53,636 nt of DNA. Source: Gemmiger formicilis (GTDB lineage: Bacteria; Bacillota; Clostridia; Oscillospirales; Ruminococcaceae). The DNA lies in contig NZ_FUYF01000014.1 of NCBI RefSeq assembly GCF_900167555.1, forward strand, positions 1 through 53,636, in the 5' to 3' direction. Below the pieces are notes generated by a model, which searched no databases, was not told where the DNA came from, and was given only the letters and a program-made list of their open reading frames with translations. Numbering within the stretch: the first letter of the stretch is position 1; each line of letters begins with the position of its first letter. The translations under genes and the position numbers were made by a program. Positions 13,383 through 16,958 of this stretch are shown here, piece by piece.

Positions 13383-14285
13383 GTGAAACAAAAGGAAACA
13401 GCAGCAGTGCTGATGGTGCTGTTGGCAGCGGCCTGCTGGGGCGCAAACGGTATCTTTATCAATATCCTGACGGCCTACGGCGTCAACGGCACCCAAATGA
13501 CTCTCGTGCGTATGGCCTCGATGGCCATTCTGACAGGCATCTGGCTGGCGGCGAAAAACCCCGCCGCGCTGAAGATCGACCTGCGGGACCTTGTCTGGTT
13601 CGTCCCGGCAGGTGCATTGGGGCTGTTTATGTTCGGCCTGTTCTACACCTACTCCATCCAGCTTGTGGGTATGGGCACGGCTGCCGTGCTCATCTACCTT
13701 ATGCCGTCCCTTGTCATGCTGTTCAGCGTCGTGTTCCTGCATGAAAAGTTCACCCCCGGCAAGGGGCTGTGCCTTGTGCTCAGCCTGCTGGGCTGTGCGT
13801 TAGTCAGCGGCGTGGCAGGCGGCGTAACGCTGGATGCGGGCGGTGTGGCCTACGGTCTCGGTGCCGCGCTGTGCTACACGCTGCAGAATATTCTGCTGGC
13901 CACCAAGCTGAAAAAGTACAGCCCGATGACAAATCTGTTTTACATGTTCCTTTTCAGTGCAGCGGCAAGCCTTGTGTTTACCGCCGCCGCAGGTGAGCTG
14001 CCGGGCGTTGCCTATATCCTGACAACGCCCGGTGCGCTGGCCGCCAACCTCGGGTTGGGGCTGGTGTGCTCTTTAGCGGCGCAGTGGCTGTACACCGCCG
14101 CGCTGAAAACCATCCCCGCCAGCCGTGCGTCCATTGCCGCCACCTTTGAGCCTGTGGCCGCCGCGCTGTTCGGGCTGGTATTGTTCGGGCAGAAGATGGA
14201 TGGATTCGGCGTAGCCGGCATTGTGTGCGAGGTCGCCGCGCTGGTGCTTTTGCAGCTGCCGGCCCCCGCAAAACGGAAAGGATAA
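13383..14285 (+). CDS. EamA/DMT-family transporter
   Basis: The protein has 300 residues and ten predicted membrane segments in two repeated five-helix halves. The second half carries the usual (A/V)ASIAATFEPVAAALFG-like signature near residues 240-255. DMT proteins export amino acids, nucleobases or sugars; the substrate cannot be told here. A GTG start follows GGAGT. It begins 50 bp after the GH1 gene and could be read through from that operon. Confidence 0.85.
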   Translation: MKQKETAAVLMVLLAAACWGANGIFINILTAYGVNGTQMTLVRMASMAILTGIWLAAKNPAALKIDLRDLVWFVPAGALGLFMFGLFYTYSIQLVGMGTAAVLIYLMPSLVMLFSVVFLHEKFTPGKGLCLVLSLLGCALVSGVAGGVTLDAGGVAYGLGAALCYTLQNILLATKLKKYSPMTNLFYMFLFSAAASLVFTAAAGELPGVAYILTTPGALAANLGLGLVCSLAAQWLYTAALKTIPASRASIAATFEPVAAALFGLVLFGQKMDGFGVAGIVCEVAALVLLQLPAPAKRKG

Positions 14286-14289
14286 GCAA

Positions 14290-14727
14290 ATGGCAAAGAA
14301 ACAGACCCCCACGGTACAGGATTACCACAAGAGTGAGACCTACAAGAACGCTGATGCCGAGACCCGCCGCAATCTGCACCGCTATAAATCCGAGCTGAAC
14401 ATCACAGACGAGCAGATGAACTGGCTGATGGCCTTGGAGGACGTGCGCCTGACCCCGAAGGAGCAGCGCCGCAAGGGCAATGCCACCGCGGAAATGATGG
14501 TGATCGGCTCGACAGTCACCTTTTTGCTGGCCGCCAATGTGGGGCAGCGTGCGTTTATGCTGATTGCCAGCGTATTTTTCATCTTTGCCGCGGGGCTGTA
14601 CCTGTCCGGCGCCCTGAACCCCTACAGCATTGCCATCCGCAAAATGAAAAAGCAACTGAAAGCTTACCCAAAAGTTCCGTCCTTTAAAGAGTGGAGCAAA
14701 CCAGCCGACAAGGACGACAACGAATAA
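14290..14727 (+). CDS. Small two-helix membrane protein of unknown function
   Basis: The 145 residues comprise a charged N-terminal half (about 1-70), two hydrophobic segments near 78-95 and 100-118, and a basic C-terminus. It starts 4 bp after the stop of the EamA gene with AAAGGA in front, so the two are probably translated together and it may be an accessory subunit. No known domain was recognised. Confidence 0.65.
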   Translation: MAKKQTPTVQDYHKSETYKNADAETRRNLHRYKSELNITDEQMNWLMALEDVRLTPKEQRRKGNATAEMMVIGSTVTFLLAANVGQRAFMLIASVFFIFAAGLYLSGALNPYSIAIRKMKKQLKAYPKVPSFKEWSKPADKDDNE

Positions 14728-14765
14728 GCCATTCCCTTGCTGAGTTACACAGCATTCCTCATATT

Positions 14766-14804
14766 ACACAAAGCCCCTGCCGCAGCACTGCGGCAGGGGC
14801 TTTG
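14766..14804 (+). terminator. Strong hairpin terminator
   Basis: A perfect GC-rich stem (ACAAAGCCCCTGCCGCAG and its complement) with a tiny loop lies 39 bp past the small membrane protein gene. AACA/TTGT flanks give weak U-tracts in both directions. Confidence 0.7.
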
Positions 14805-14811
14805 TGCTGCG

Positions 14812-14977
14812 TGTCGAAAAACCTCCCTCTGCGAGGGAGGTGCCCCGAAGGGGCAGAGGGAGAGAACCTTGCCATAGCCCGAAATATTTCGGGCAACCGT
14901 ACAGTTTTCTCCCCCACCGCCTGCGGGCGGAGCCCCCTCGCAGAGGGGGCCAAGGGGTGAGCACACCTTTTTCGACA
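14812..14977. repeat. MITE-like palindromic element A
   Basis: The element is bounded by inverted ends TGTCGAAAAA (14812-14821) and TTTTTCGACA (14968-14977). Inside are CCTCCCTCTGCGAGGGAGG and CCCCCTCGCAGAGGGGG palindromes and a central CCCGAAATATTTCGGG. There is no coding capacity. The same end motif bounds elements at 41066 and 52315. Confidence 0.7.
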
Positions 14978-15058
14978 GTCTGTTAAATTTATACCATGTG
15001 TATTCCCATTCGGAAACAATGCACAAATCCAGCCTTGCAAGGTTGTGAAGTCTGCGAA

Positions 15059-15087
15059 TAGACGAAAGGCCGGGGCTGTGCTATAGT
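15059..15087 (+). promoter_or_regulatory. Promoter of the large orphan RNA
   Basis: TAGACG (15059-15064), a 17-bp spacer and TATAGT (15082-15087) predict a start near 15094. No ribosome site or reading frame of useful length follows before the terminator. Confidence 0.6.
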
Positions 15088-15093
15088 ATAGTT

Positions 15094-15656
15094 ACAGAAA
15101 GAAAACAGCCGAAGCTAAAAAGCCAAAAGTTCCCAGGGAGCGGATTTCTCAACAGAGAAACAGAAAGACTGATCGGCAGGATTTCGCAAGGAAGGAGGCT
15201 CAAGTCCAATGGTAAACTTCAAGGATCCTATTTATCACCGGCGGGCGTGGGCCTGCTGACAGAATAAGACTGCATCCAAAAGCCGCAGAGTATTCTCTGT
15301 AAAAGATCAATAAAAATGTGATGTACGGTATTTTACAAAATTGCTAGCAGACACACGGGCCCGTCAAAACAGACCCCCGCGTGAATATAGATTAGGCTGA
15401 AAGAAGGCTGGCAGCGATGACTACCACCACTCCACCCAACAGATCCTATCTGAACTTCACCTGATCATCAAGGAGAAACTCCCATGTACCAGAGTTAAGA
15501 GGGCAACACCTCTGCATCAGACCCGAAACAAAAAAAACAGGGATGATTCCTATGACCAAACGGAAACAGACCGAAAAATAAGGCAAAGGGTTATGAGGCT
15601 ATGACTCCAATCATCTGATACCACCGGGGCGGACGCAAGGTTCCGCCCCGGTTTTG
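15094..15656 (+). ncRNA. Candidate large structured non-coding RNA, about 560 nt
   Basis: This is a free-standing unit with its own promoter, no open frame of note on either strand, and a strong terminator (ACCGGGGCGGA 15623-15633 paired with 15642-15652, then TTTTGTT). The body is purine-rich and full of short stems with small A-rich loops: TTTCTC/GAGAAA (15145-15160), GCGGGC/GCCTGC (15241-15256), CAGAG/CTCTG (15286-15299), GTAAAA/TTTTAC (15299-15336), CAGAT/ATCTG (15440-15452), GGAG/CTCC (15472-15482) and AGAGG/CCTCT (15498-15513). It is not tmRNA, RNase P RNA, 6S or SRP RNA by any motif seen. Size and extrachromosomal setting recall ROOL-, GOLLD- or OLE-type ornate RNAs; ROOL is the closest guess by length, but no family signature was matched. 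Confidence 0.6.
15623..15656 (+). terminator. Terminator of the large RNA
   Basis: An 11-bp perfect stem, ACCGGGGCGGA with TCCGCCCCGGT, has an 8-base loop and is followed by TTTTGTT. It cleanly separates the RNA unit from the glycerate kinase gene. Confidence 0.85.
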
Positions 15657-15728
15657 TTATGTCTGCCGGCAAAAAGCAGAGGGCCGGGCGGCTGTCCCCT
15701 GCTTTTACGAAAGGAAAGGAGCAACACA

Positions 15729-16958
15729 ATGGAGCAGCTCTTGCGCCAACGCGCAGAATCGATTTGGACAGCGGCCATCCGGTCCGTTTTGCCGGATGAG
15801 GCGGTGCGCCGCGCTTTGGAGCGTTTTCACCCGCAGGGGCGTGTATTTCTCGTGGCAGCGGGCAAGGCCGCGTGGCAGATGGCCCACGCGGCGCTGGCCG
15901 TGCTGGGCCGTGTGGACGGCGGGATCGTCATCACAAAATACGGCCATGTCAGGGGGCCGCTGCCCGGCGTGACCTGCTGCGAGGCAGGGCATCCGGTGCC
16001 GGACGACAACAGCTTTGCGGCCACCCAGCGGGCGCTGGCGCTTGTCAGCGGTCTGCGGGCGGACGACACCGTGCTGTTTCTGCTCTCCGGCGGCGGCAGC
16101 GCGCTGTTTGAAAAACCGCTGCTGCCCGCTGAGGAGCTGCAGGCCATCACACAGGCGCTTTTGGCCTGCGGTGCGGATATTGTTGAGATCAACACGATCC
16201 GCAAGCGGCTGTCTGCCGTCAAGGGCGGGCGGTTCGCGCTGGCCTGTGCGCCCGCCGCGGTGTACAGCGTGGTGCTCAGCGACATTCTCGGCGACCCGCT
16301 CGATATGATCGCCAGCGGCCCGGCCTGTCCGGACAGCTCGACCTGCGCGCAGGCTGCTGCCATTGCGGAAAAATACCGGCTGGCGCTCTCCCCTGCTGCT
16401 GCGGCCCTGCTGCGGCAGGAAACGCCCAAAACGCTGCCCAACGTGACCACAAAAATCACCGGCAGCGTGCGGGAGCTGTGCCGCGCCGCTGCGGACGCCT
16501 GCCGCGCCGAAGGGTACGAGCCGGTTTTGCTGACAGACTGCCTTTGCTGTGAGGCCCGGGAGGCCGGCAGCCTTCTGGGAAGCATTGCCCGCACCCACGC
16601 AGGGCATGGCCGCAAGCGGGCCTTTATCGCGGGCGGCGAGACCGTTGTGCATCTGACAGGCCATGGGCTGGGCGGGCGCAATCAGGAGCTTGCCTTAGCC
16701 GCAGCCCCGGCGCTGGCTGGGCTGTGCGGGTGCTGTGTTTTCTCGGTGGGCAGCGACGGCACCGACGGTCCCACCGATGCCGCGGGCGGCTACACGGACG
16801 GCGAAGCCTTAGCCGCCCTCACTGCGGCGGGCCTGGACGTGCCCCGTGCGCTGGCCGACAACGACGCCTACCACGCCTTACAGGCCGTTGGCGGTCTGAT
16901 CATGACCGGCCCCACCGGCACAAACGTCAACGACGTGGCAGTTGTGCTGACGGAATGA
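15729..16958 (+). CDS. gckA: Glycerate 2-kinase, GckA/MOFRL type
   Basis: This 409-residue cytoplasmic kinase phosphorylates D-glycerate to 2-phosphoglycerate, feeding lower glycolysis. Family signatures are [12 protein letters not shown] (about 116-127), [29 protein letters not shown] and [12 protein letters not shown] (about 318-329). [13 protein letters not shown] and [10 protein letters not shown] complete the C-terminal MOFRL domain. GAAAGGAAAGGAG precedes the ATG at 15729. It stands alone between the orphan RNA terminator and a bidirectional terminator at 17022. Confidence 0.92.

Follow-up and report, generated by a model that had tools for sequence, protein, structure and literature searches.

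The DNA at positions 15059 to 15656 of a contig from Gemmiger formicilis (the whole 53,636-nt stretch analyzed is called the window) belongs to a family of bacterial RNA genes with its own promoter and terminator, a conserved structure, and a series of micro-ORFs whose frames are kept while the constraint on their peptides is uneven. Based on these features we lean, tentatively, toward an RNA that is conserved, transcribed separately and folded, in which each micro-ORF of the series has its own initiation and which acts by engaging ribosomes. What matters may be that ribosomes visit the RNA, and not which peptides they make.

Distribution of the RNA family

The source genome carries three copies of the RNA. 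The copy in the window (about 0.56 kb) is among the shorter family members, a second (C38:7740-8357) has 72% identity to it across nearly the whole query, and a third (C40:6782-7645) is longer and was matched in three pieces. A search of 100 genomes with the window copy matched 35 of them: 33 of the 35 Gemmiger genomes (its own included), a Fournierella genome (G046), and one genome with a 36-base match (G093), which was set aside since its locus (L071) lacks all seven motifs tested.

Using a sequence-only model of the last 70 nt of the RNA (R1), we found it in 32 of 35 Gemmiger genomes (18 of 19 high-quality genomes) and in 28 of 31 Faecalibacterium genomes (22 of 22 high-quality genomes). 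Each positive genome of these genera has one R1 match, apart from the source genome with three and G027 with two. The RNA is present as a tandem pair in Fournierella massiliensis and as a single copy in the genus g86. With stricter filters, R1 gave no match at E 0.001 in 39 of 41 further genomes and no credible further genus among 394 genomes of the order. The latter search returned 14 genomes at E 0.01 or better. The five below 1e-14 are from the source genome and Faecalibacterium (G153, G242, G306 and G356), and the nine weak ones (E 2e-4 to 8e-3, loci L168-L176) were taken as chance because, by eye, the other modules are absent in all of them. An earlier homologue search had returned ten genomes from other genera than the window's, five of them chance hits. 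In the GTDB species collection, 32 contigs contain the terminal motif, and 31 of them were accepted on inspection of the sequence; the Faecalicatena hit (L135) was rejected, the other modules being absent. Promoter-like patterns also occur at G026:C1:195911 (L097) and G397:C98:274741 (L160). At L160 a short stretch with hairpins and no Rfam match comes next, and coding-looking sequence after it. Three loci with the promoter-like pattern but without the terminal motif (L093, L139 and L160) were dropped. A phage or plasmid origin was rejected, given no matches in phage records, in plasmid records (Faecalibacterium query only), or in viral contigs searched by exact motif.

The distance from promoter to terminator is 623-641 or 1103-1144 nt in Faecalibacterium, about 0.5 kb in Fournierella, and about 0.5 to 1.55 kb in Gemmiger (589-1616 nt for stretches with flanks). 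By eye, the 1.1-kb Faecalibacterium class repeats a module that runs from ATTCAAATA through an ORF ending in FE to a two-codon ORF. At L058, L061 and other Gemmiger loci a variable insert of up to several hundred nucleotides lies between the 5' end and micro-ORF 1; these 5'-half inserts appear purine-rich by eye and contain small hairpins.

Promoter, terminator and body of the window copy

The sequence-only reading had described an independent RNA with a 17-bp-spaced promoter, a gene-free body and a strong terminator. Both signals are present as described (Table 1), the TAGACG-17-TATAGT promoter at 15059-15087. A scan of 14700-15800 alone finds one promoter-like site compared to 0.6 in shuffled sequence, and two terminator-like sites compared to 1.9, neither above chance; the significance of both signals comes from their recurrence in homologues. 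In the window's genus the promoter block has the form TGCGAATAGAC-N18-TATAGTATAGTCACAGAAAG. The block recurs across homologues and is kept at Gemmiger, Fournierella and Faecalibacterium loci, and the terminal hairpin with its T tract recurs likewise. On the -35 side, conservation at 15050-15087 and in homologues takes the form TGCGAATAGAC or TGCGAATGGAC (some Faecalibacterium have TGCCAATAGAC), which exceeds the width of a -35 hexamer. In Gemmiger a further ATGCACAAAT-like block lies upstream, and a regulator site is possible.

No ORF of at least 60 amino acids with an ATG, GTG or TTG start overlaps 15094-15650. The body is nonetheless not gene-free, as it holds five AUG micro-ORFs with Shine-Dalgarno sequences. 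The fold of 15093-15656 has a free energy of -158 kcal/mol (z = -3.52), which none of 100 shuffled sequences equaled, and a Faecalibacterium RNA (L141) gave a z of -4.56 (20 shuffles). Together with the conserved promoter and terminator and the compensatory base changes described below, this supports the proposal of an independent structured RNA.

Table 1 Features of the RNA copy in the window
Feature	Positions	Strand	Description
Promoter	15054..15087	+	GCGAATAGACG; -35 hexamer 15059-15064; -10 TATAGT 15082-15087; probable transcript start about 15094
Micro-ORF 1	15209..15259	+	16 codons, MVNFKDPIYHRRAWAC, stop TGA; Shine-Dalgarno GAAGGAGG upstream
Long-range helix, 5' strand	15240..15245	+	GGCGGG, inside micro-ORF 1; derived from alignment columns 32-37
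Hairpin	15286..15299	+	CAGAG-TATT-CTCTG; two pairs compensatory in the window copy; CAGGT...ACCTG in 27 of 31 other aligned Gemmiger sequences
Long-range helix, 3' strand	15360..15365	+	CCCGTC
Micro-ORF 2	15417..15464	+	15 codons, MTTTTPPNRSYLNFT, stop TGA
Shine-Dalgarno of micro-ORF 3	15472..15482	+	possible hairpin GGAG-AAA-CTCC right before the AUG
Micro-ORF 3	15484..15498	+	MYQS, four codons, stop TAA; two-codon AUG-UAC-stop in many homologues
Micro-ORF 4	15552..15581	+	MTKRKQTEK, 9 codons, stop TAA
Micro-ORF 5	15601..15618	+	MTPII, 5 codons, stop TGA; within the most conserved motif, ATGAGGCTATGACTCC
Rho-independent terminator	15623..15656	+	11-bp stem (9 G-C pairs, 15623-15652), then T tract

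Genomic context

The usual home of the RNA is downstream of argS. Of 65 transcripts, 40 have the argS gene upstream in the same orientation (42 of 70 when counted by locus), and none has it on the opposite strand. Three of the 65 (L073, L088 and L200) were absent from the database searched; at L073, argS was seen upstream by eye. From argS to the promoter the distance is 122-357 nt in 34 transcripts and 927-1141 nt in six, two of which are second tandem copies. The 25 transcripts without argS differ in the upstream sequence examined, from 0 nt to 15 kb. No argS was found within 7-15 kb upstream of three Gemmiger copies (the window copy, L035 and L038), in 1500 nt upstream of twelve Faecalibacterium loci of the 600-nt class, in 906 nt upstream of L198, L200 and L201, in 817 nt upstream of L064, or in the 0-552 nt upstream of L056, L069, L088, L190 and L191. 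In L070 (7170-7730 and 7980-8530; Fournierella massiliensis) and in L113, from a related genome, tandem pairs of the RNA gene lie downstream of argS, and each copy in L070 has its own promoter block.

On the other side of the RNA, the 2.5 kb downstream was compared by protein similarity for 36 transcripts, which gave 11 groups: three with 15, 9 and 4 members and eight with a single one. The largest comprises 14 Gemmiger loci and one from Faecalibacterium (L126). Because a protein-similar segment is thus shared across two genera, the wider argS neighborhood is conserved. The next gene at the argS locus is common within groups, and the genes downstream of the window copy, L035 and L038 are unlike all others.

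In the window, the RNA lies between an EamA transporter gene (13383-14285) and a DUF4147/MOFRL gene (15732-16958), which we take to be glycerate-kinase-like. Given that the usual home is downstream of argS, the window copy is most simply seen as a duplicate that moved. Directly upstream of it is a 145-codon ORF (14290-14724) without a Pfam match. A GC-rich palindromic repeat at 14815-14965, also upstream, has 77 matches in its own genome at 71-100% identity. Many of these are double hits, one per strand at a single site, so that by eye there are about 40 sites. It looks like a miniature interspersed repeat.

Structure and covariation

Homologues were collected and covariation was examined, as the sequence-only reading had proposed, in an alignment of 23 Faecalibacterium sequences (A3) and an alignment of 32 Gemmiger sequences (A4). 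Compensatory changes are found in both, in the long-range helix of each genus. In A3, 98.0% of cells in the tested structure are paired, compared to 26-45% when the structure is slid along the alignment, and 29 cells are changed on both sides, compared to 10.3 in shuffles (0 of 500 shuffles as high). Two of the five covariation measures are unexceptional in A3, namely the pairs with two-sided change (4; 99 of 500 shuffles) and the further pair types (12; 489 of 500). The same two measures are unexceptional in the test of the alternative ORF 1 hairpin (411 and 468 of 500 shuffles). In A4, 12 cells are changed on both sides, compared to 2.7 in shuffles, and five pairs have two-sided change, compared to 1.1 (0 of 500 in each case). 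RNAalifold gave two-sided changes in only 3 of 51 pairs.

The long-range helix of A3 is a 9-bp helix between columns 108-116 of ORF 1 and columns 240-248, with GC/CG at 108/248 and AU/GC at 113/243; in 7 of 23 sequences the bases at 114/242 are mismatched. An alternative hairpin within ORF 1 (columns 95-104 with 113-121) has all cells paired, with UA/CG/UG at 104/113. The two are mutually exclusive, since both need columns 113-116. The corresponding helix of A4 has GC in 22, AU in 8 and GU in 2 sequences at columns 35/161, and one of its six pairs (37/159) is unpaired in 7 of 32. The helix can be drawn, partly by eye, also in Fournierella, L073, L126, L190 and L191. The pattern search for the 3' strand partly presupposes the pairing, and for this reason the aligned counts from A3 and A4 are used here.

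Several amino-acid changes in micro-ORF 1 retain these pairs. In A3, where the column pairs concerned are 104/113, 108/248 and 113/243, the changes are F/Q (codon 9), G/A (codon 10) and T/A (codon 12), which retain helix or hairpin pairs, and in A4 R/Q at codon 12 follows the partner of column 35 at column 161. A Gemmiger hairpin (A4 columns 79-83/88-92; Table 1) has 98.1% of its cells paired. Four of its pairs are changed on both sides, two of them in the window copy and one each in L036 and L064. The hairpin of Shine-Dalgarno and CUCC sequence before micro-ORF 3 has no covariation in A3 (pairs 350-353/357-360), where one pair is broken in 7 of 23.

Micro-ORFs and their start sites

Four of the five micro-ORFs of the window copy have a Shine-Dalgarno match of at least 4 nt; micro-ORF 4, at 15552, has one only under a looser rule. 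Counterparts occur in homologues, although not all in each. The micro-ORF 1 frame is present in all 33 Gemmiger transcripts, with the peptide MANFKDPIHHRRAWAC in 17. Other Gemmiger members mostly have MANFKDPIHHRRAWAC or near variants, then MxxxTPPNR... with 13-17 residues (lacking in some), MY or a form of 3-4 residues, a peptide ending in SEK (also lacking in some), and MTPKK or MTPIK. Micro-ORF 2 was not seen in several longer Gemmiger RNAs, and micro-ORF 4 is absent from 11 of 65 transcripts, 10 of them Gemmiger. The Faecalibacterium series consists of MVDMEPAQFGQTVGIR and variants, MK...FE (10-12 residues), MY or MI, MKFIFRISVPQSNS or others, and MY, followed by MKRPVQTEK, MKRLLRK or MKGEVNSEK and then MTPKK. 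In Fournierella the peptides are MFSDTTPAQNGRLGSC, MYRILKYLLEF (in one copy), MY, MKMPFGTDRK, and MTPII or MTPIG. In the diverged Faecalibacterium loci L190 and L191, two-codon ORFs such as ATG-ATT-TAG recur, by eye, within modules of the type GAGGCTTTGAAACCAATG; these modules look similar to the terminal one, GAGGCTATGACTCC. An overlapping frame, MRL (ATGAGGCTATGA), was rejected; it is not conserved, and most Faecalibacterium sequences viewed have no ATG there. A single interrupted protein was excluded because the frames differ in phase and have stops between them.

We counted AUGs preceded at a spacing of 3-13 nt by a Shine-Dalgarno match of at least 6 nt (or of 4 nt), with 60 shuffles per set. 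Under the 6-nt rule the 33 Gemmiger transcripts contain 58, where shuffles average 6.6 and reach at most 11, and 20 Faecalibacterium transcripts contain 64, where shuffles average 4.8 and reach at most 10. Such starts are about 9-13 times commoner than in shuffles, with the caveat that the sequences are related and the shuffles treat them as independent. On the reverse strand of the same transcripts there are none. Of these frames 121 of 122 close within 2-17 codons (57 of 58 in Gemmiger and 64 of 64 in Faecalibacterium), compared to about half in shuffles. Under the 4-nt rule the counts are 229 compared to 98 in shuffles (Gemmiger) and 172 compared to 66 (Faecalibacterium). The window copy alone has a small excess, 2 compared to 0.2 (6 nt) and 5 compared to 2.1 (4 nt).

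The frames are also kept through changes in length. In micro-ORF 4 the length of an A run varies jointly with the distance from the AUG to CCGAAAA. Among 54 transcripts, 34 combine five A with phase 1 and 16 combine four A with phase 2, with an immediate TAA, TAG or TGA; for the remaining four, scoring had begun at an upstream AUG, and when read by eye from the following AUG they fit as well. The four-A form is found in Fournierella, g86 and several Faecalibacterium. Micro-ORF 4 thereby switches between frames ending in SEK and in RK and retains its stop. By eye, the FE-ending ORF differs in length only by 3 and 6 nt among the 23 sequences of A3, where the stretches between ORFs also have gaps of other lengths.

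Two-codon ORFs account for 93 of the 273 AUGs that directly follow CC or CCN (34%; 64 transcripts; 67 + 4 + 22), compared to 37 of 581 AUGs without CC or a Shine-Dalgarno sequence (6%). Their stops are TAG (52), TAA (34) and TGA (7), and their second codons UAC (62), AUU (19), AUC (3), UUC (3) and others (6). Many consist of a Shine-Dalgarno sequence, AUG, one sense codon and a stop, as minigenes do. The pattern used for the terminal motif permitted TGG, which occurred in none of its 32 hits (L135 included).

The sequence-only reading had named codon-like substitution in place of compensatory change as a sign against a structured RNA. Codon-like behavior is partly seen, in conserved start and stop positions, the interchange of three stop codons, whole-codon length changes and phase-compensated A runs, but it is seen together with compensatory changes, and the plain codon-position and pN/pS tests give a mixed outcome.

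Comparison with known RNAs

At gathering thresholds, Rfam release 15 has no match to the window copy or to L097, L160, L140, L126, L058 and L070, in agreement with the earlier impression that no known class was recognizable. With E values up to 10, parts of the window copy, L141 and L061 gave 14, 2 and 4 hits, all below gathering and none to a large bacterial RNA class. ROOL, GOLLD, OLE and the other large classes named earlier presumably have models in this library. The proposal had been either a new family or a diverged member of a known one. The first is supported, as a new structured RNA family, and the second, a diverged member of a known large RNA, was rejected on the Rfam scans. ARAGORN found no tRNA or tmRNA in the window copy. 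Nor does the RNA look like a type I toxin-antitoxin RNA, in which a hydrophobic membrane peptide is paired with an antisense RNA: the recurrent peptides, of 2-17 residues, are by eye too short for a membrane span.

Like the Gemmiger RNA, ROOL, GOLLD and OLE are stand-alone structured bacterial RNAs of several hundred nucleotides. RNAs of this kind are expected to lack conserved translated frames; the Gemmiger RNA holds a series of frame-kept, putatively translated micro-ORFs and matches no Rfam family. The likeness to these giant RNAs suggested by the sequence-only reading is not supported. The insect tarsal-less/mille-pattes RNAs likewise carry several very short ORFs on one RNA, but repeat one conserved peptide motif, whereas the peptides of the Gemmiger RNA differ and the RNA is structured. 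ROOL/GOLLD/OLE-like RNAs form homo-oligomeric RNA-only complexes (PMC12286853, excerpt). Peptide-encoding bacterial sRNAs are similarly regulatory-looking RNAs with short ORFs, in that case of 10-50 residues and under selection for coding (PMC5521070, excerpt), whereas here at least five serial frames, mostly of 2-16 codons, have uneven peptide conservation. We found no description of this RNA in the open-access literature searched.

Peptide constraint and alternative explanations

The pN/pS ratio of ORF 1 is 0.87 in Faecalibacterium and 0.24 in Gemmiger, and the latter could reflect a conserved peptide. Other values are 0.44 for the MKFI ORF and 0.67 for the FE ORF, both of Faecalibacterium, and 0.85 for Gemmiger ORF 2 (a set of 14, of which one or more are false). 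By codon position, ORF 1 has 6/6/8 variable sites in Faecalibacterium, which is not coding-like, and 2/6/9 in Gemmiger. These figures are hard to read as selection on the peptide because ORF 1 sites are also under pairing constraint, and neither the codon-position test nor pN/pS alone establishes a conserved peptide.

It is unlikely, on this evidence, that the gene is a polycistronic micropeptide gene whose di- to hexadecapeptides themselves act, for example as leaderless signals. Besides the Gemmiger ORF 1 ratio, such a gene would fit the size of micro-ORF 1, which among the members read is 15-16 residues everywhere but in L126, where it is 22, and the pair MKRVTPHIH and MKREIRPHIH of L190 and L191, which by eye reach the same end residues through silent changes and with different stops. 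Leaderless communication peptides have been reported in Firmicutes (PMC10518010, excerpt). However, the peptides differ between genera and drift within Faecalibacterium (pN/pS 0.87 and 0.67 in two of three sets, 0.44 in the third), a two-codon ORF has little room for information, a number of substitutions go along with RNA pairing, and micro-ORF 4 alters its frame while its stop is kept.

Reading the locus as a large non-translated structured RNA, broadly in the manner of ROOL, GOLLD or OLE, with the AUG frames as by-products of conserved motifs, would explain the compensatory helices, the folding z scores of both genera and the long variable inserts in Gemmiger. It gives no reason, however, for the excess of Shine-Dalgarno and AUG combinations with prompt stops, for the interchange of stop codons, for phase-compensated A runs or for whole-codon indels, and we consider it quite unlikely.

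Improbable, too, is a dual-function RNA that regulates mRNAs by base pairing and uses its micro-ORF sites as protective docking points for ribosomes. The promoter and terminator of its own would suit such an RNA, but much of the conserved sequence sits in and around the micro-ORFs. The two-codon minigenes of lambda bar, which act by tRNA depletion, and of axe-txe (mg2) have the same arrangement of Shine-Dalgarno sequence, AUG, one codon and stop as the two-codon ORFs here. The axe-txe minigene, a possible precedent for docking, raises expression of txe in cis, possibly by protecting the mRNA (PMC8708949, excerpt). Unlike minigenes that act in cis on a following gene or deplete tRNA, those of the Gemmiger RNA occur several in one conserved RNA, beside frames of 9-16 codons and with a terminator behind.

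A cis-acting leader or attenuator for a neighbor, either argS upstream or the downstream gene, is very improbable despite the same-strand argS in most transcripts and the downstream group that spans two genera, as the RNA, where it follows argS, has a separate promoter and is closed by a terminator, argS is missing near the window copy, L035 and L038 (7-15 kb upstream) and the 600-nt Faecalibacterium class (0.9-1.5 kb), and the genes downstream of the first three are unlike any others.

Discussion

An RNA selected for the visits of ribosomes is the simplest account of these observations, because start, stop and phase are kept while many residues drift, in a gene with a promoter, a terminator and compensatory helices. 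We infer that the RNA is transcribed and translated in the cell, that selection acts on ribosome passage and not on a peptide, and, because it has its own terminator and copies at unrelated loci, that it acts in trans; the last is the less sure because the downstream gene at the argS locus is common within groups.

Ribosomes would load at about five to ten Shine-Dalgarno/AUG sites on the RNA, make products of mostly 2-16 residues, and stop at once. In passing, they would open the helices situated within the reading frames, and micro-ORF 1 would alternate between its internal hairpin and the long-range helix, whose partner strand lies some 120 nt farther downstream. The RNA could then act in trans, for example as a sensor of the state of translation or as a sink for initiating ribosomes. 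Going further, one may think of a new class of bacterial RNA that is translated without a product that matters, a scaffold of minimal frames that would load, move and release ribosomes, whose passage would switch mutually exclusive helices and so report or buffer the capacity for translation initiation. At present this larger claim is doubtful.

Gemmiger and Faecalibacterium are common in the gut, and the RNA is a near-universal gene of the two genera, present in 22 of 22 high-quality Faecalibacterium and 18 of 19 high-quality Gemmiger genomes examined, with frames too short for the usual gene finders. If the micro-ORFs are translated, the RNA would offer a natural system for the behavior of ribosomes on minimal ORFs, and a test of whether translation can be selected without selection on a peptide.
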